Source: a virus
Strand: one strand, 5' to 3'
DNA length: 43,591 nucleotides
Virus record (IMG/VR): IMGVR_UViG_3300045976_000154
Span: 1-43,591 of that record
Position 1 is the first letter of the stretch. Every line of letters starts with the position of its first letter. The notes beneath the pieces are model-generated. The model ran no database searches. It had not been told where the DNA came from and saw nothing but the letters and a program-made list of their open reading frames with translations. This document shows positions 2,510 to 43,591 of this stretch, piece by piece. A program made the translations under genes and the position numbers.

Positions 2510-5460
2510 CGCACGATGCCGCCGTCGGCGTCGATCTGGTAGAGGCCGGCGGCCTTGGGCGTGCCGGAGCCGGCCAGCGGGATCGTCTTCGACGGCGCGA
2601 GCTGGTTGCCCTTGCTGTCCTTCACCGTCACGGTGAGCTCGTGGTAGGACGGCAGCGCCGGTCCTGCGGCGGCGGGCGCCGCGCCGGCGCCGGGCGCCAC
2701 CTTGGCGTCGGGCAGCGTGTCGGGCGCGAGCATGGGCACCTCGCGCGCGAACGCGTCGCCATAGGCGTCGGCGGCGGCCGAGCGCGTGTACGGGCCGCCG
2801 TTGTACATGCGCGCCGCGGCGCGCCGATCGCCGCCGGCGCGCTTGAGCATCTCCGCGTAGATCGCGGCGCCGGCGCGGATGTTGTCGACCGGGTTCATCG
2901 CCGTCTCGGGCGTCAGGCCGAGCGCATCCAGGTTCGAGCCGTTGATGCCCATGAGGCCGTAGTCCGTCGTCCCGTTTGCGTTGTCGTGCTTCGCGTTCGG
3001 GTTGAGCGTCGACTCGCGCGTGGCGAGCAGCTTCAGCTCGCGCCAGGAGAACGGCTTGCCGATCGAGGCCGCCCGGAACAGCGGGTCGAGCGCGCTGGGC
3101 GAGTTCGTGAGGTCGGCGTTGCTGCGGTCGACCTTCTCGTCGCGCGCGCGCTGCGCCGCGGCCTCCGGCGAGTCCGGGTGGTCGCGCACGAACTCGGCAC
3201 GCTGCTCGACGCCGATCTGGGCATCGATCGCCGCCTTCTGCTTCGTCAGGCCCTCGACCACACCCGCGTCGGGCGGCAGGAACATCGGCTTGCCGCCGAC
3301 GTCCACGCGCCGGCCGACCTTGGCGGACTCGATCTGCTTGGACAGGTCGGCGCTCTGCCGCTGCAGCTTCACCACCGGCGAGACGCCCATCAGCTCGTCG
3401 GCCTTGTCCTGGTCGATGACCTTGAAGAACTGCGCGGTGCGCACGACCGCCTCACGCACGCCCTCCATGATCGGGATGAGCTTGCTCGCGAGCGTGGTGA
3501 CGGCGTTGTCGATCGCCGCCAGGCTGTCGCGCGTCTTCTCGCCCTCGGTCTTGATCGTCTCCTTGGCGGCGATCGGCGCGAGCACCTTGCGCAGCTTCTC
3601 GTCGTCGTCGCCGGCCGCGGCGATCGCGGAGCGCTGCTGGTCGGTGAGCGCGTCCGCGCCCGTGCGCGCGAGCATGTCGGCGCGGCGCTGCACGAGGTCG
3701 GCGTGCCCAGCACTGAGCACGCCCGCTGCCTGCGCCATCTGCCCGACGTTGATGCCGGTCGTGTCGACGCCCAGGCCCTTGAGCTGCTCCAGGACGCCGG
3801 CCGTGCCTCGGCCGCGCATGGCCGCCATCAGCGCGTAGGCGTCGCCGCGCGAGGGCGCGCCCATCGCCTGCAGGGCGGAGGCGAGCTGCTGCGTGTTGCC
3901 ACCGTAGCGCGCCTGCAGGCCGCCATAGACGCTGTCGAAGACGGTCCCGTTGCCGGCGGCCGAGCTCATGCGGCCCAGGCGATCCATCTCGCGCGTGTCG
4001 CCGCGCGCGGCCGCAGCGCGGTAGGCCGGGCTGTTCTCGCCGAAGACGTCGCGCACGTTGGCCATCAGGCCGGCCTCGCGCACCGACTGCACGTCGTAGC
4101 CCGTGGCGGGCATCCCGCGGCGCATCATCGACGACAGCAGCAGCATGTCGCCCGACTCGCCGCCGGCGCCGCCGCGGAAGCCCGCGTCCATCGCCGCCAT
4201 CCGGCCGATGCCCTCGGCGGTGCCCAGGCCCGGCAGGCGCAGCTGCGCCAGGCGCGCGGCGACGTCCAGGACGTTGTCCGTGTTCGCGCGCGTCAGCGAG
4301 CCGCCGGCGACCTGAGACGAGTAGGCGGTGAGGTTGCCCAGCACCTCCGACAGCCGGCCGAAGTCGCCGCGCTTGGAGATGGCGTCCGCGATCGACCGGC
4401 CGAGCTTGTCGGGCGAGTCCTGGCCGGTGCGGCGCAGCTCGGCGAACTGGCTCACCGTCGAGCCCACGTCCAGACCCATGAGGCGCGCGAAGCCGCCGGC
4501 GCGGCCCGTCTCGTCGAACAGGCGCCCGCGGTCGGACTGCCCGATGCCGCTGGCCGCCGCGTAGGCGCGCGACAAGCCCGTCGCCTCGCCGGTCGTCACG
4601 TCCAAGCCCCGGCCCAGCGCGCTCGCGCTCTCGCGCAGCCGGTCGAACTCGTCGGCCGTGCCGCCCACCGAGCGGATGAGGTCGCTGCGCGACTGGCCTT
4701 CCTCCTGCGCGGCGCCGACCTTGCCGGCGACGGCGCCGACCAGCTTCATCGCACCGAAGGCCGCCGCGCCGATGACGCCGCCCAGCGCCAAGCGCCCGAG
4801 CCCGGCGGCCGACGTGAAGCCGCCGGCGCCCGAGGCCTCGGCGATGCCCTGGCCGAAGATCCGGCCGCCCAGGCCGGGGGAGGGGAGCAGCTGCCCGGCG
4901 ACGCCGCGGCCAGTCATCGCCAGCGCGCGCGCCGCGAAGCCGGCGGCAGAGCCCGGCGCGCCGCCGCCGGGCGAGCCCGGCCTGCCGTCGCCCAGGCCGA
5001 TCGCGCCGAGCACCTGCGCGCGCATGCGCTTGGCCTCGGTCTCCGACAGCGCGGCCTTGCGCCAGCCGCCATCGAGGTACTCGTCGAGCGTGCCGGGCAG
5101 CCGGCGCGTGCCGCGCGCGCCGGACTGGCGCCAGGCGTCGTACTCCGTGCGCGCGTTCGCCACCTGCTCGCGCGTGCGCTTCACGCCGATGCTGGCCAGC
5201 TGGCCCTGCATCTTGACCGTCTTGGCCAGCTCGTCGTTGAGCTTCTTCTGCGCGGTGACCGCGGCCGGCAGCGACAGCTGCTTGTCGACCTGCTTGCCGG
5301 CCTCCCCGAGCTTGTCGATCGCCTTCTCGGCCCCCGTCGTGTCGAGGACGACCTCGCGCGGCTTGGCGGCGTCGTCGATCTTCGCGCCAAGGTCGACGAC
5401 CTCCTTGTCGACCCCGGAGAGGTCGGCGCCGATCTTGATTTCGGGGTTGTTGCCGCTCAT
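2506..5460 (-). CDS. Tape measure protein with C-terminal lytic transglycosylase domain
   Basis: A 984-residue protein, the second longest gene-like frame in the block, placed after the tail-chaperone pair as expected for a tape measure. The N-terminal 130 residues are charged and helical. A hydrophobic Gly/Ala segment lies at about residues 205-245, and a long Ala/Arg-rich helical middle follows. Residues about 800-905 form an SLT-type transglycosylase: a RES motif with catalytic Glu near 816, then YGLMGIN, then MYNGGP. This domain would open peptidoglycan during DNA entry. By the usual scaling of about 0.15 nm per residue, a tail near 150 nm is expected (inference). The last 60 residues are Ala/Pro/Gly-rich. 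Confidence 0.88.
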   Translation of the reverse strand: MSGNNPEIKIGADLSGVDKEVVDLGAKIDDAAKPREVVLDTTGAEKAIDKLGEAGKQVDKQLSLPAAVTAQKKLNDELAKTVKMQGQLASIGVKRTREQVANARTEYDAWRQSGARGTRRLPGTLDEYLDGGWRKAALSETEAKRMRAQVLGAIGLGDGRPGSPGGGAPGSAAGFAARALAMTGRGVAGQLLPSPGLGGRIFGQGIAEASGAGGFTSAAGLGRLALGGVIGAAAFGAMKLVGAVAGKVGAAQEEGQSRSDLIRSVGGTADEFDRLRESASALGRGLDVTTGEATGLSRAYAAASGIGQSDRGRLFDETGRAGGFARLMGLDVGSTVSQFAELRRTGQDSPDKLGRSIADAISKRGDFGRLSEVLGNLTAYSSQVAGGSLTRANTDNVLDVAARLAQLRLPGLGTAEGIGRMAAMDAGFRGGAGGESGDMLLLSSMMRRGMPATGYDVQSVREAGLMANVRDVFGENSPAYRAAAARGDTREMDRLGRMSSAAGNGTVFDSVYGGLQARYGGNTQQLASALQAMGAPSRGDAYALMAAMRGRGTAGVLEQLKGLGVDTTGINVGQMAQAAGVLSAGHADLVQRRADMLARTGADALTDQQRSAIAAAGDDDEKLRKVLAPIAAKETIKTEGEKTRDSLAAIDNAVTTLASKLIPIMEGVREAVVRTAQFFKVIDQDKADELMGVSPVVKLQRQSADLSKQIESAKVGRRVDVGGKPMFLPPDAGVVEGLTKQKAAIDAQIGVEQRAEFVRDHPDSPEAAAQRARDEKVDRSNADLTNSPSALDPLFRAASIGKPFSWRELKLLATRESTLNPNAKHDNANGTTDYGLMGINGSNLDALGLTPETAMNPVDNIRAGAAIYAEMLKRAGGDRRAAARMYNGGPYTRSAAADAYGDAFAREVPMLAPDTLPDAKVAPGAGAAPAAAGPALPSYHELTVTVKDSKGNQLAPSKTIPLAGSGTPKAAGLYQIDADGGIVR

Positions 5461-41177: not shown

Positions 41178-41681
41178 TCAGGCCTGCGGATCGGTACCGG
41201 CTCGGCCGGACTCGTGCGCGAGCTTGTCGCGCAGGCGGAAGGCCAGCAGCGGCCAGAGCTGAGCGATGGCGTCGGCGCGCGCGATGCGCTTGCCGATCTC
41301 GGCGTCGAAGTTCTCCGGGCTGGTGCATGCGGACTTGCCAGTGACGGGGAAGCCGTTGCGCAGGACGAGGACGCAGAAGGTCAGCAGTCCGAGCTGCTGC
41401 GGGGCGTCGGCCCAACCGCCCTCGTGATCGCCCTTGTCGTGCGCGCCGTTGTAGCCGTCGGCGGCGGTGAAGTAGTGCTCGCTGGCGATCTCGGCCTCGA
41501 TGTCCGCCGGCGTCACGCGCGGGCCGCGGTTCGGCAGCTCGGCGTCCGCCGGCGGCGTCTTCACGCCGCAGCGGTCGTTGTCGGTACCGGCGAGGCCCTG
41601 CTCACGCAGGTGGGCGATGACCACGTCCTCCGCGGCGCGGATCTTGGCGGTCTGGATGCGGTGGAGCAGATCGGAACTCAT
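41178..41681 (-). CDS. Phage Gp49/66-family protein
   Basis: A 167-residue protein. I chose ATG 41681 (MSSDLLHRIQTAK) because it has a good ribosome binding site, and because the longer frame would reach into the hairpin-rich region. Conserved blocks IEAEIASEHYFTAADG, then QQLGLLTFCVLVLRNGFPVTG and CTSPENFDAEIGKRIARADA, then WPLLAFRLRDKL match the Gp49/66 family, common among phages and of unknown function. Confidence 0.78.
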   Translation of the reverse strand: MSSDLLHRIQTAKIRAAEDVVIAHLREQGLAGTDNDRCGVKTPPADAELPNRGPRVTPADIEAEIASEHYFTAADGYNGAHDKGDHEGGWADAPQQLGLLTFCVLVLRNGFPVTGKSACTSPENFDAEIGKRIARADAIAQLWPLLAFRLRDKLAHESGRAGTDPQA

Positions 41682-41937
41682 GTGTGTCCTCAGTTCGTTG
41701 ATGCCGGTGACCGTGTCCGGCGTCGGCGTTCCTGCTACGGCCGGTTCCCCGGCCACCGCCCCGACGGCTTCCCTTCGCGCGAGCGCGCTTCACTTGACGA
41801 GCGAGGGGCCGGCGCTGATCTCCGGCTTGCGGTCGGGACTCGAACCCGTCGCGCGCTCTTTCGCCTACCAAGCTCCGCGCGAGCTTCGACATCGGTGCCC
41901 CTAGTCGCCTGCCCGCCGCGCATCAGCACTGCGCATT

Positions 41938-42084
41938 CCCTCTGTTCAGCGGGCCGGGCTCGATACCGGCTGCGCGGAGCGGCTTTGCTGGCCACCTTGG
42001 ATCGCCTTCACGGGTGCGCACCCGATCCAGTCGCCGCGCTTCGTCTGCCAAGCCTGTCCTTCCAGGCGGCCGCTGAACAGAGGG
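41938..42084 (-). ncRNA. Stem-loop domain with 18-bp outer stem
   Basis: Bases 41,938-41,956 pair with 42,067-42,084 (one bulge). The enclosed 110 bases contain two more hairpins, including GGGTGCGCACCC inside TGGATC/GATCCA, and a T-arm-like CCGG-TATCGAGC-CCGG. Confidence 0.6.
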
Positions 42085-42089
42085 AACCT

Positions 42090-42174
42090 CCCTCGCGGAT
42101 GGAGAGGGCGGAATTGAACCGCGCACCGTGGCGAACCAGGCGAGCCAACCAGGCGTTCTCTCCATTCGCGAGGG
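42090..42174 (-). ncRNA. tRNA-like stem-loop with canonical T-loop
   Basis: Bases 42,090-42,106 pair with 42,158-42,174 (17 pairs, one G-T). Inside, GGAGAG/CTCTCC mimic an acceptor stem, a GCC-TGGTT-GGC hairpin mimics a D arm, and GCGG-TTCAATT-CCGC mimics a T arm. The anticodon arm is short and abnormal, so a normal decoding tRNA is unlikely. Confidence 0.5.
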
Positions 42175-42295
42175 CCGGCCGAAGCCGGTCTCTACGCCAG
42201 GCCGTTGATGACCTGGATCGCCCCATGTGCCTTGGGCCTTAGCGGCGTGCTCGCAGCCCCTTCACGGGACAAGTCCGCACCATTCGAGGCTCGTG

Positions 42296-42403
42296 CCCTC
42301 AGACCAGCGCCCGGGATCGCGGCCCCGGCTCGTGTTTCACAGCCGGCCGGCGCCGACCTTCCGCTGCGACGCACGCTATGGCTCTTGCGCGCTGGTCTGA
42401 GGG
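42296..42403 (-). ncRNA. Stem-loop with 15-bp perfect outer stem
   Basis: CCCTCAGACCAGCGC (42,296-42,310) pairs perfectly with its complement at 42,389-42,403. Inner helices CCGGCT/AGCCGG and CCGGG/CCCGG continue the rod, and flanking CGTG/CACG and CGAG/CTCG pairs extend it outward. Confidence 0.6.
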
Positions 42404-42498
42404 TCGAGGGGCACGCTCGCATATGGCAGCGTCCACAAAGGGAAACAGGATCGAGCATTCACAAACTACCGCGGCGCCAACCCGCGGTTCGCACCCCT

Positions 42499-42529
42499 CG
42501 CCAATGCGTCGATCAACGGCGCATTGGCG
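42499..42529 (-). ncRNA. Perfect 10-bp hairpin
   Basis: CGCCAATGCG at 42,499 pairs with CGCATTGGCG at 42,520 with an 11-base loop. No T tract follows on either strand, so it is not a terminator. It is part of the structured region. Confidence 0.6.
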
Positions 42530-42607
42530 AAGTCCCGCCGGCGAAATACGAGCGCCGGTCGGCCTCGCCCGCGCGCCACGAGGACGCGCGAAGCCACGGT
42601 CAGGTGT

Positions 42608-42889
42608 TCAGGAGAAGTGCGGCAGCAGGCCGCGGAAGAACTCGCGCACCTTGGCGAGCGGCGCATCGACGAACTCGGCCAGCGCCTGGTGCTCCAGCTT
42701 CGTACGCAGCGCGGCGATGTGCGCGCGCGCCTCGGTCGTGTACTTCTCGATGCTGGCTTCCACGCGCGCGATGTCGGCCTCGACGGCCTGGCGCAGGGTC
42801 ATCTCGACCGGTTCATCGGCCGGCTTGCTGGCGGGGGCGATGGAATTCGCCACGGGGGTGTCGTCGTGAGTTTCGTCGGCCATGTTCAT
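42608..42889 (-). CDS. Small acidic helical protein
   Basis: A 93-residue protein (starts MNMADETHDDTP; ATG 42,883 is an alternative). A disordered acidic N-terminus leads to a helix (VEADIARVEASIEKYTTE, HIAALRTKLEHQALAEF), then a short basic end. A good GAAGGA ribosome binding site precedes it. It is the last gene before the structured region. No family recognised. Confidence 0.58.
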   Translation of the reverse strand: MNMADETHDDTPVANSIAPASKPADEPVEMTLRQAVEADIARVEASIEKYTTEARAHIAALRTKLEHQALAEFVDAPLAKVREFFRGLLPHFS

Positions 42890-42956: not shown

Positions 42957-43484
42957 TCAACGTCTCTTGAGCGTGTTGCGCGACTCCAGTTTTCGCTTCG
43001 GCCACGCGCTTCGCGGCATGGGCATGCGGGCCGCGCGCGGCGGCAGCTTGACGGCCCGGAAGGCGGCGACGGTGAGCCTCGCGGCTGCCATCGCCTCCTC
43101 GTCCTCGGGCCCAGCGACCAGCACGACGACCGCCTTCCCGCGGACGCGCGCGGTGGCGCTGACCCTGCGGTCGACCTGTGCTGCCTCCCAGCTCTCGACC
43201 TCGGCGCGCGCCACGCCCACCAGCGCCCATGTCTCTTCGACCAGCGCCTGCTCGGTCACGCCGTAGGTGCGCACGAAGGCCTTGGTGCCCAAGCCGTGGA
43301 TGCCGGCGTCGCCGCGGTGATGCTCCCGGCAGAGCGGCATCGTGCGCCAGTCGCTCGCGCGGCGGCCGCCGCCGGTGCCGGCCCGCTGGTGGTGCACCTC
43401 GACGGCTGGCGATGGCAGCGCCAGGCGCACGCAGATCCGGCAGGCCAGCTGCGCCACGCGGCCCATGTAGGCGGCGCCGTTCAC
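42957..43484 (-). CDS. Ref/HNH-like phage nuclease
   Basis: A 175-residue protein; GTG 43,484 is the chosen start, but the frame stays open to the window edge, so it may be longer. Residues 5-70 (AAYMGRVAQLACRICV, VEVHHQRAGTGGGRRASDW, TMPLCREHHRGDAGIHGL) carry Cys pairs and the HH...LCxxHH motif of the Ref/HNH family, whose members nick DNA in recombination or restriction-like contexts. The C-terminal part after residue 90 is not conserved to my eye and ends very basic. Confidence 0.72.
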   Translation of the reverse strand: MNGAAYMGRVAQLACRICVRLALPSPAVEVHHQRAGTGGGRRASDWRTMPLCREHHRGDAGIHGLGTKAFVRTYGVTEQALVEETWALVGVARAEVESWEAAQVDRRVSATARVRGKAVVVLVAGPEDEEAMAAARLTVAAFRAVKLPPRAARMPMPRSAWPKRKLESRNTLKRR

Positions 43485-43591
43485 TTCCGCTTCCTCGGGA
43501 ACTTGGCGCGCGCGCGCTCGGCCTTGAACTGCGCGCGATAGCCGCCTTTCCCGGTCTCGACCGTTCGCTTCTCGTTGAAGTCGGACGCGAC
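43481..43591 (-). CDS. Partial upstream gene end (uncertain frame)
   Basis: A frame ending in a basic tail (ARAKFPRKRK) with TGA overlapping the GTG of the nuclease gene is open to the window edge. The nuclease frame is equally open, so I cannot tell which is real without upstream sequence. Confidence 0.3.
   Translation of the reverse strand, partial: VASDFNEKRTVETGKGGYRAQFKAERARAKFPRKRK

Follow-up and report, generated by a model that had tools for sequence, protein, structure and literature searches.

A predicted modular structured RNA in a virus genome and a scaffold class with apparently exchanged payloads in phages of Proteobacteria

The window, that is, the whole stretch of DNA that was analysed, is a 43,591-base IMG/VR virus record. 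Region 41682-42607 is flanked by two genes on the minus strand, 42608-42889 on one side and 41178-41681, which encodes a Phage_gp49_66 protein, on the other. The open reading frames overlapping the region had no Pfam or PHROGs match at E <= 0.01, in agreement with an earlier reading made from the letters alone (the sequence-only reading), which had seen no convincing gene there. A coding explanation was rejected because it is without Pfam/PHROG support and because the payload lengths described below are free. Neither a sigma-70 promoter nor an intrinsic terminator was found on the minus strand of the region, and co-transcription of the RNA with the neighboring genes is therefore likely. A blastn search of the 926-nt region against annotated phages gave no match, and a 987-aa open reading frame of the window used as anchor retrieved no relatives. 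The window encodes a helicase with 51% identity, over 80% of its length, to the one of Bordetella phage PHB04, and PHB04 contains no match to R1, the type I model used below. Just upstream of the RNA region, positions 42957-43589 (minus strand) encode a RecA-dependent nuclease-like protein (PF16786, E 4e-7).

The minus-strand fold of the whole region has an energy of -483.5 kcal/mol as compared to a mean of -448.9 for shuffled sequences (z -5.6, with 0 of 20 shuffles as good), as the sequence-only reading had led one to expect; the plus-strand fold gave z -4.2. The density of hairpins described in that reading was likewise seen, with stems of 17/17 bp (41936-41952 with 42070-42086), 15/15 bp (42296-42310 with 42389-42403), 16/17 bp (42090-42106 with 42158-42174) and 13/14 bp (42498-42511 with 42517-42530), all from an inverted-repeat search with the pairing rechecked. 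The two minus-strand T-loops with T-stems that it had pointed out are also present, each on a 4-bp stem: CGGG-UUCGAGU-CCCG at 41848-41834 and GCGG-UUCAAUU-CCGC at 42122-42108. The folding signal is local: four stretches carry z values of -4.0 to -4.8 (listed below), and values elsewhere range from -0.5 to +0.3, close to zero, with -0.5 for the type I module. To judge from the sequence, region 41682-42607 is almost certainly a modular structured phage RNA read from the minus strand. Its features are as follows.

41682-42607, minus strand: gene-free region, predicted modular structured RNA (fold z -5.6; no Pfam/PHROG match in open reading frames)
41803-41942, minus strand: type I module with closing stem GAGGG/CCCUC, hairpin 1, payload and hairpin 2 (R1 match; pairing rechecked)
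41808-41826, minus strand: type I hairpin 2, GCCGG-AGAUCAGCG-CCGGC (alignment, covariation, pairing recheck)
41827-41917, minus strand: type I payload, 91 nt, a singleton for which no relative was found (payload clustering)
41834-41848, minus strand: T-loop hairpin within the type I payload, CGGG-UUCGAGU-CCCG (sequence)
41918-41934, minus strand: type I hairpin 1, GCGC-AGUGCUGAU-GCGC (alignment A1; stem covariation)
41936-42086, minus strand: type II module with 17-bp closing stem, hairpin 1, payload and hairpin 2 (z -4.2 for 41938-42086; family of 82 stretches)
41953-41970, minus strand: type II hairpin 2, GCCGG-UAUCGAGC-CCGGC (type II family; pairing recheck)
41971-42051, minus strand: type II payload, 81 nt (type II parse; pairing recheck)
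42052-42067, minus strand: type II hairpin 1, GCCUG-GAAGGA-CAGGC (type II family; pairing recheck)
42090-42174, minus strand: module III, a long stem around a D-like arm and the T-loop hairpin 42108-42122 (z -4.7)
42296-42403, minus strand: module IV, a perfect 15-bp stem closing a branched structure (z -4.8; inverted repeat)
42498-42530, minus strand: hairpin V, a near-perfect 14-bp stem (z -4.0 for 42490-42540; inverted repeat)

About 120 nt separate the end of the type I module from gene 41178-41681. The module has a tRNA-like layout, with a closing stem, a 4-bp arm, a variable arm, a 5-bp arm abutting the stem, and loop-loop complementarity: the hairpin 2 loop AUCAGC is complementary to GCUGAU of hairpin 1, whose loop AGUGCUGAU has one extra U relative to the consensus AGGCUGAU. 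Searched with cmsearch, R1 matched positions 41799-41946 with 59.5 bits and E 5.7e-15, the window sequence being one of the 43 rows on which the model was trained. When the type I stretch is folded by itself, the minimum-energy structure (z -0.5) favors a nested helix in which the two complementary loops pair, and the structure of this module thus rests on comparison and not on energy. The sequence-only reading had taken it for a tRNA lacking a normal anticodon arm; the resemblance in layout stood, but none of its hairpins is a tRNA arm and it received no score with tRNA models, so that the tRNA reading of the type I module is only an analogy.

A short conserved sequence is common to the window and to loci fetched through the downstream gene, and the 3' hairpin pattern matches at least 120 IMG/VR stretches, nearly all of them with the 5' hairpin shortly upstream. 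The type I order is closing stem, AAU, GCGC-AGGCUGAU-GCGC, payload (mostly 26-166 nt), GCCGG-AGAUCAGCA-CCGGC and closing stem. Compensatory changes among relatives, such as the proposed RNA implied, were found in an alignment of 43 sequences chosen for closing stems of at least 5 bp, in which double changes on both sides occur in 8 of 9 pairs of the closing stem, 2 of 4 of hairpin 1 and 3 of 5 of hairpin 2. The covariation score of this alignment was 0.359; shuffling gave 0.108, and slid partners reached no more than 0.127. Because these sequences had been pre-chosen for their stems, 165 unselected modules were also checked, and at least five closing pairs were present in 151 of them versus 20 (maximum 31) with shuffled partners. 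The loops GCUGAU and AUCAGC are complementary, with pairs 97% conserved and no double change in the 43 sequences; since this complementarity is conserved without covariation, the loop-loop contact is a putative one. Among the closing pairs of 172 distinct type I modules G-U occurs 19 times and A-C 3 times, an excess that indicates an RNA read from this strand. As far as aligned sequences can tell, type I is a scaffold class in which the closing stem and the two hairpins, all covarying, surround a payload, and the window belongs to it.

The second scaffold, type II, was searched with a pattern drawn from the window and two other loci (L077 and L019), which matched 82 IMG/VR stretches. The window fits it with a closing stem, GCNNG-GAWGGA-CNNGC, a payload and GCYGG-NAUYVAGC-CCRGC. 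Closing stems of at least 9 bp were found in 59 of 67 parsed copies as compared to 8 (maximum 16) after shuffling, and the hairpin 1 stems covary (GCGUG/CACGC, GCACG/CGUGC, GCGCU/AGCGC). Type II often lies directly upstream of type I. This is also the case in the window, where the two scaffolds stand in tandem at the 3' side of the region with one strand in common: the 3' stem strand of type II (AGAGGG) overlaps the 5' stem strand of type I, and because this strand is shared the two closing stems compete. A small hairpin, CCCCGGAAAGACGGGG, recurs just before the type II closing stem (e.g., L361, L368, L376). Modules III-V had no relative among the fetched loci.

The window had no Rfam match at gathering score and only chance-like hits at E <= 10. 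A tRNA identity was rejected, as neither ARAGORN nor the Rfam tRNA model made a call; the best tRNA-clan score was 17.3 bits (tRNA-Sec, E 3), for module III, which is tRNA-like without an anticodon arm. Like tRNA and tmRNA, type I is cloverleaf-like with complementary arm loops, some payloads contain T-arms, and the P1 array contains a tmRNA-tag-like sequence; unlike them, no anticodon arm or CCA end was seen, and ARAGORN and Rfam made no call in the window. GOLLD and ROOL, RNAs that phages encode near tRNA islands, assemble into nanocages via kissing loops, and their function is unknown (PMC12286853). The sequence-only reading had offered membership in one of these families, and this was rejected, as their covariance models matched neither at gathering score nor at E <= 10. 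They resemble the window RNA in being large structured phage RNAs, often near tRNAs, with kissing loops where complementary loops occur here; they differ in having one conserved fold, whereas the window class consists of modular arrays with exchangeable payloads. The broader proposal in that reading, a large structured minus-strand phage RNA with tRNA-like features and of a class absent from Rfam, has been borne out.

The closest known architecture is that of STnc100 (RF02076) and PasD. Both resemble the present class in being prophage-encoded near lysis genes or stx and in consisting of a closing stem, an AAU linker, hairpin 1, a variable middle and a GC hairpin abutting the closing stem, and the STnc100 layout is seen in the window modules when they are compared by eye with the RF02076 structure line. 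In contrast, the hairpin and loop sequences differ, and RF02076 matches only a bridging module, the third and divergent one of a P1-like plasmid (E 3.2e-6, 37.8 bits, with a gathering score of 47), which R1 matches at E 0.0025. RF02076 had no match in the window at E <= 10, so the window is not a member of STnc100 by sequence. R1 in turn had no match at E <= 5 to STnc100 in an Stx phage (L415) or to an STnc100-like copy in Klebsiella phage 2b LV-2017 (L416). In this Klebsiella phage a stretch of 1.5 kb without annotated genes lies between Q and the lysis genes (L416:765-2291) and contains the STnc100-like RNA with another middle part; among the Klebsiella STnc100-like copies only the two ends are conserved. 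STnc100 and the window scaffolds share an architecture, and common descent is plausible. No published mention of the scaffold strings was found within an incomplete coverage of the literature, nor was a description of STnc100 as a scaffold with exchangeable payloads. The window system is probably new in kind, with the reservation that STnc100 probably has the same architecture; if STnc100 is counted as a known kind, the window system is a variant of it.

Type I modules are present in phages P1, P7, D6 and mEp460; a module of P1 spans 69817-69918. In 871 of 5,426 complete E. coli genomes at least one place covered 80% or more of the scaffold query, and 242 of all 1,183 matching E. coli places are plasmid-borne. 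Genome matches are mostly in Beta- and Gammaproteobacteria. A scan of Gammaproteobacteria with the class-wide model found the class in at least 2 of 185 genomes, a lower bound as 20 candidates per genome were scored, and the exact hairpin-2 pattern occurs in 10/295 and 6/295 genomes in two families (reversed control, 0). Hundreds of phages contain the scaffolds, and yet this widespread RNA class has apparently been overlooked in familiar ones. The association with tRNA genes supposed in the sequence-only reading holds in part: 31 of 218 modules have a tRNA gene within 1 kb versus 11.4 at random positions (maximum 20), and 86% of modules are not near one. Modules adjoin tRNA genes in P1, P7, D6, HC6 and UPM 2146, lie near immunity genes in PAE2 and mEp460, and occupy, in one case, the space between Q and holin of a lambdoid E. 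coli prophage. In Klebsiella phage UPM 2146, 3.3 kb without annotated genes lie by the tRNA cluster (L205:2332-5668) and contain one type I module.

Clustering of 179 type I modules gave 140 payload groups. Entire modules together with their payload are common to different loci at ~73-98% identity with flank homology of only 0-16 nt, the same payload is found on different closing stems, and homology stops at the module edges. A P1-like plasmid and phage mEp460 have 137 nt in common at 98.5% identity, which is the module found by R1. Conversely, payloads are unrelated in 27 of 45 pairs whose flanks are homologous on both sides, and one payload occurs on both scaffolds, type I (L268, L279) and type II (L345). 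P1 and P7 have ~1.16 kb upstream in common at 94% identity and begin to diverge at the payload; the downstream sequence also differs, so that only the upstream boundary is sharp in this pair. Very probably, payloads of the class are exchanged as cassettes across phages on a constant scaffold; the evidence for this is at class level, the type I payload of the window being a singleton. Homologous recombination in the conserved scaffold would be a simple route of exchange. Exchange alone does not prove selection, and part of it may reflect neutral recombination where the scaffold sequence is conserved.

Five-base-pair T-arms were found in 7 of 233 distinct payloads versus 0.55 (maximum 3) in random windows of the same loci, a count from which the 4-bp T-loop hairpin of the window at 41834-41848 was left out. 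One payload (L175, insert upstream of 4661-4680) resembles positions 243-282 of E. coli 16S rRNA (82.5% over 40 nt, E 1.2e-7). Taken as a set, the payloads show no excess of similarity to E. coli 16S, 23S, 5S or tmRNA, and general rRNA/tmRNA mimicry was rejected, with 52 hits over all inserts against ~48 per shuffled set. As T-arms occur in only ~3% of payloads and rRNA/tmRNA enrichment is absent, mimicry of translation RNAs is not general; the T-arms and the one 16S-like payload suggest it for a minority of payloads.

The best explanation of the whole combines a modular RNA, cassette exchange and decoy or inhibitor payloads, and it is put forward tentatively, at rather less than an even chance. 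The scaffold would fold, protect and present the payload, and the payload would be a structured RNA that binds a host factor. Together the payloads would supply phages in conflict with their hosts with a set of RNAs that act as decoys or inhibitors, directed for instance at host enzymes attacking tRNA, tmRNA or ribosomes. Such a role is possible rather than probable. In its favor, close relatives carry different payloads, payloads move as units, and some of them imitate parts of translation RNAs. An arms race would be expected to yield variable payloads that are exchanged horizontally on a constant frame, which favors decoys or inhibitors over the rival explanations. Type III toxin-antitoxin RNAs are structured RNA repeats that bind and neutralize a protein, and they serve as a working analogy; no toxin gene was identified beside the modules. 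With due reserve, phages of Proteobacteria may carry arrays of tRNA-shaped scaffold types whose payload units are swapped between phages and make up an evolving repertoire of inhibitors or decoys against host factors.

Another explanation, possible but rather unlikely, is that the modules are base-pairing or sponge sRNAs, with the scaffold serving as their stable body and the payload as a rapidly evolving seed for pairing with RNAs of the host or the phage. Such roles have been proposed for STnc100 and PasD, whose layout is the same and is linked to the present class by the bridging P1-like module (RF02076, E 3.2e-6; R1, E 0.0025). PasD has been reported to be structurally homologous to STnc100, with distinct RIL-seq targets for PasD1 and PasD2 (PMC13192938), and STnc100 is expressed in EHEC, with one copy seen on a northern blot (PMC5331693). 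However, the payloads look structured, with hairpins and T-arms, the window module is not followed by a 3' U-tract or terminator, and the window has no hit to the STnc100 model even at a threshold of E <= 10. The missing minus-strand promoter and terminator, and the distance of ~120 nt from the module end to gene 41178-41681, would suit a cis-acting leader, an array within polycistronic transcripts through which the following genes would be regulated in elongation, processing or translation, with the strand shared by adjacent closing stems (window types II and I; P1 array) as a switch. Modules of lambdoid phages between Q and the lysis genes, the STnc100-like copy likewise, and P1 modules downstream of the C1-controlled ban promoter fit as well. 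Genomic positions and downstream genes nevertheless vary widely, the variety of payloads is unexpected for a generic leader, and the bias of orientation to downstream open reading frames is weak (73 same versus 59 opposite by a crude rule), which leaves a leader function improbable.

Assembly of the modules through their complementary loops into RNA-only complexes similar to those of GOLLD and ROOL, whose nanocages form through kissing loops (PMC12286853), would agree with a large, phage-encoded RNA that lies near tRNAs in several phages. Neither family has an Rfam match here, and phages differ in how many modules they carry and of which type, in contrast to a fixed cage; such a particle is quite improbable. 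The hairpins might also act as folded single-stranded DNA in recombination or replication, like attC in integrons, and cassette-like exchange with boundaries at conserved hairpins is in line with this. The asymmetry of G-U over A-C in the closing stems (19 to 3) disfavors a DNA-level role, as do the T-loops, the tRNA genes and the conservation of payloads as units across phages, and this explanation is very unlikely.

Swapping of structured payloads on a fixed RNA scaffold would, if true, be a new protein-free way for phages to diversify in function. Phage P1 in E. coli K-12 makes the idea of payload exchange directly testable. In addition, the orphan sRNA STnc100 is placed in a larger architecture, and GOLLD and ROOL gain a new comparison.

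Several minor observations were made on individual arrays. A tmRNA-tag-like frame is present in arrays of P1 (L330:645-677), of a P1-like plasmid (L329:3363-3395) and of L331, L332, L102:979, L157, L159 and L184; it reads ANDDLMMVAA* in P1, with the variants ANDDVVLMAA*, ANDDLMLMAA* and ANDDLMMAAA* elsewhere. The Rfam model tmRNA_permuted gave weak matches (E 0.018 and 0.037), and the frame is possibly part of a phage tmRNA-like domain. The P1 genes plp and upl (L330:1173-1742) are annotated antisense to the RNA array, where they overlap a type I module at 1518-1619; they may not be real genes. A type I module was found in a metagenome-assembled genome titled Phycisphaerales (G004:C75:6751-6870, the genome of locus L255; E 1.1e-18), possibly as a result of contamination by a proteobacterial phage. 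A third recurring scaffold, CAACAGGUAAGRGYA...UGCUCUUACCGUUG, is present in the P1 array (L329:3921-4700), where it alternates with type I modules and strands are shared between them.
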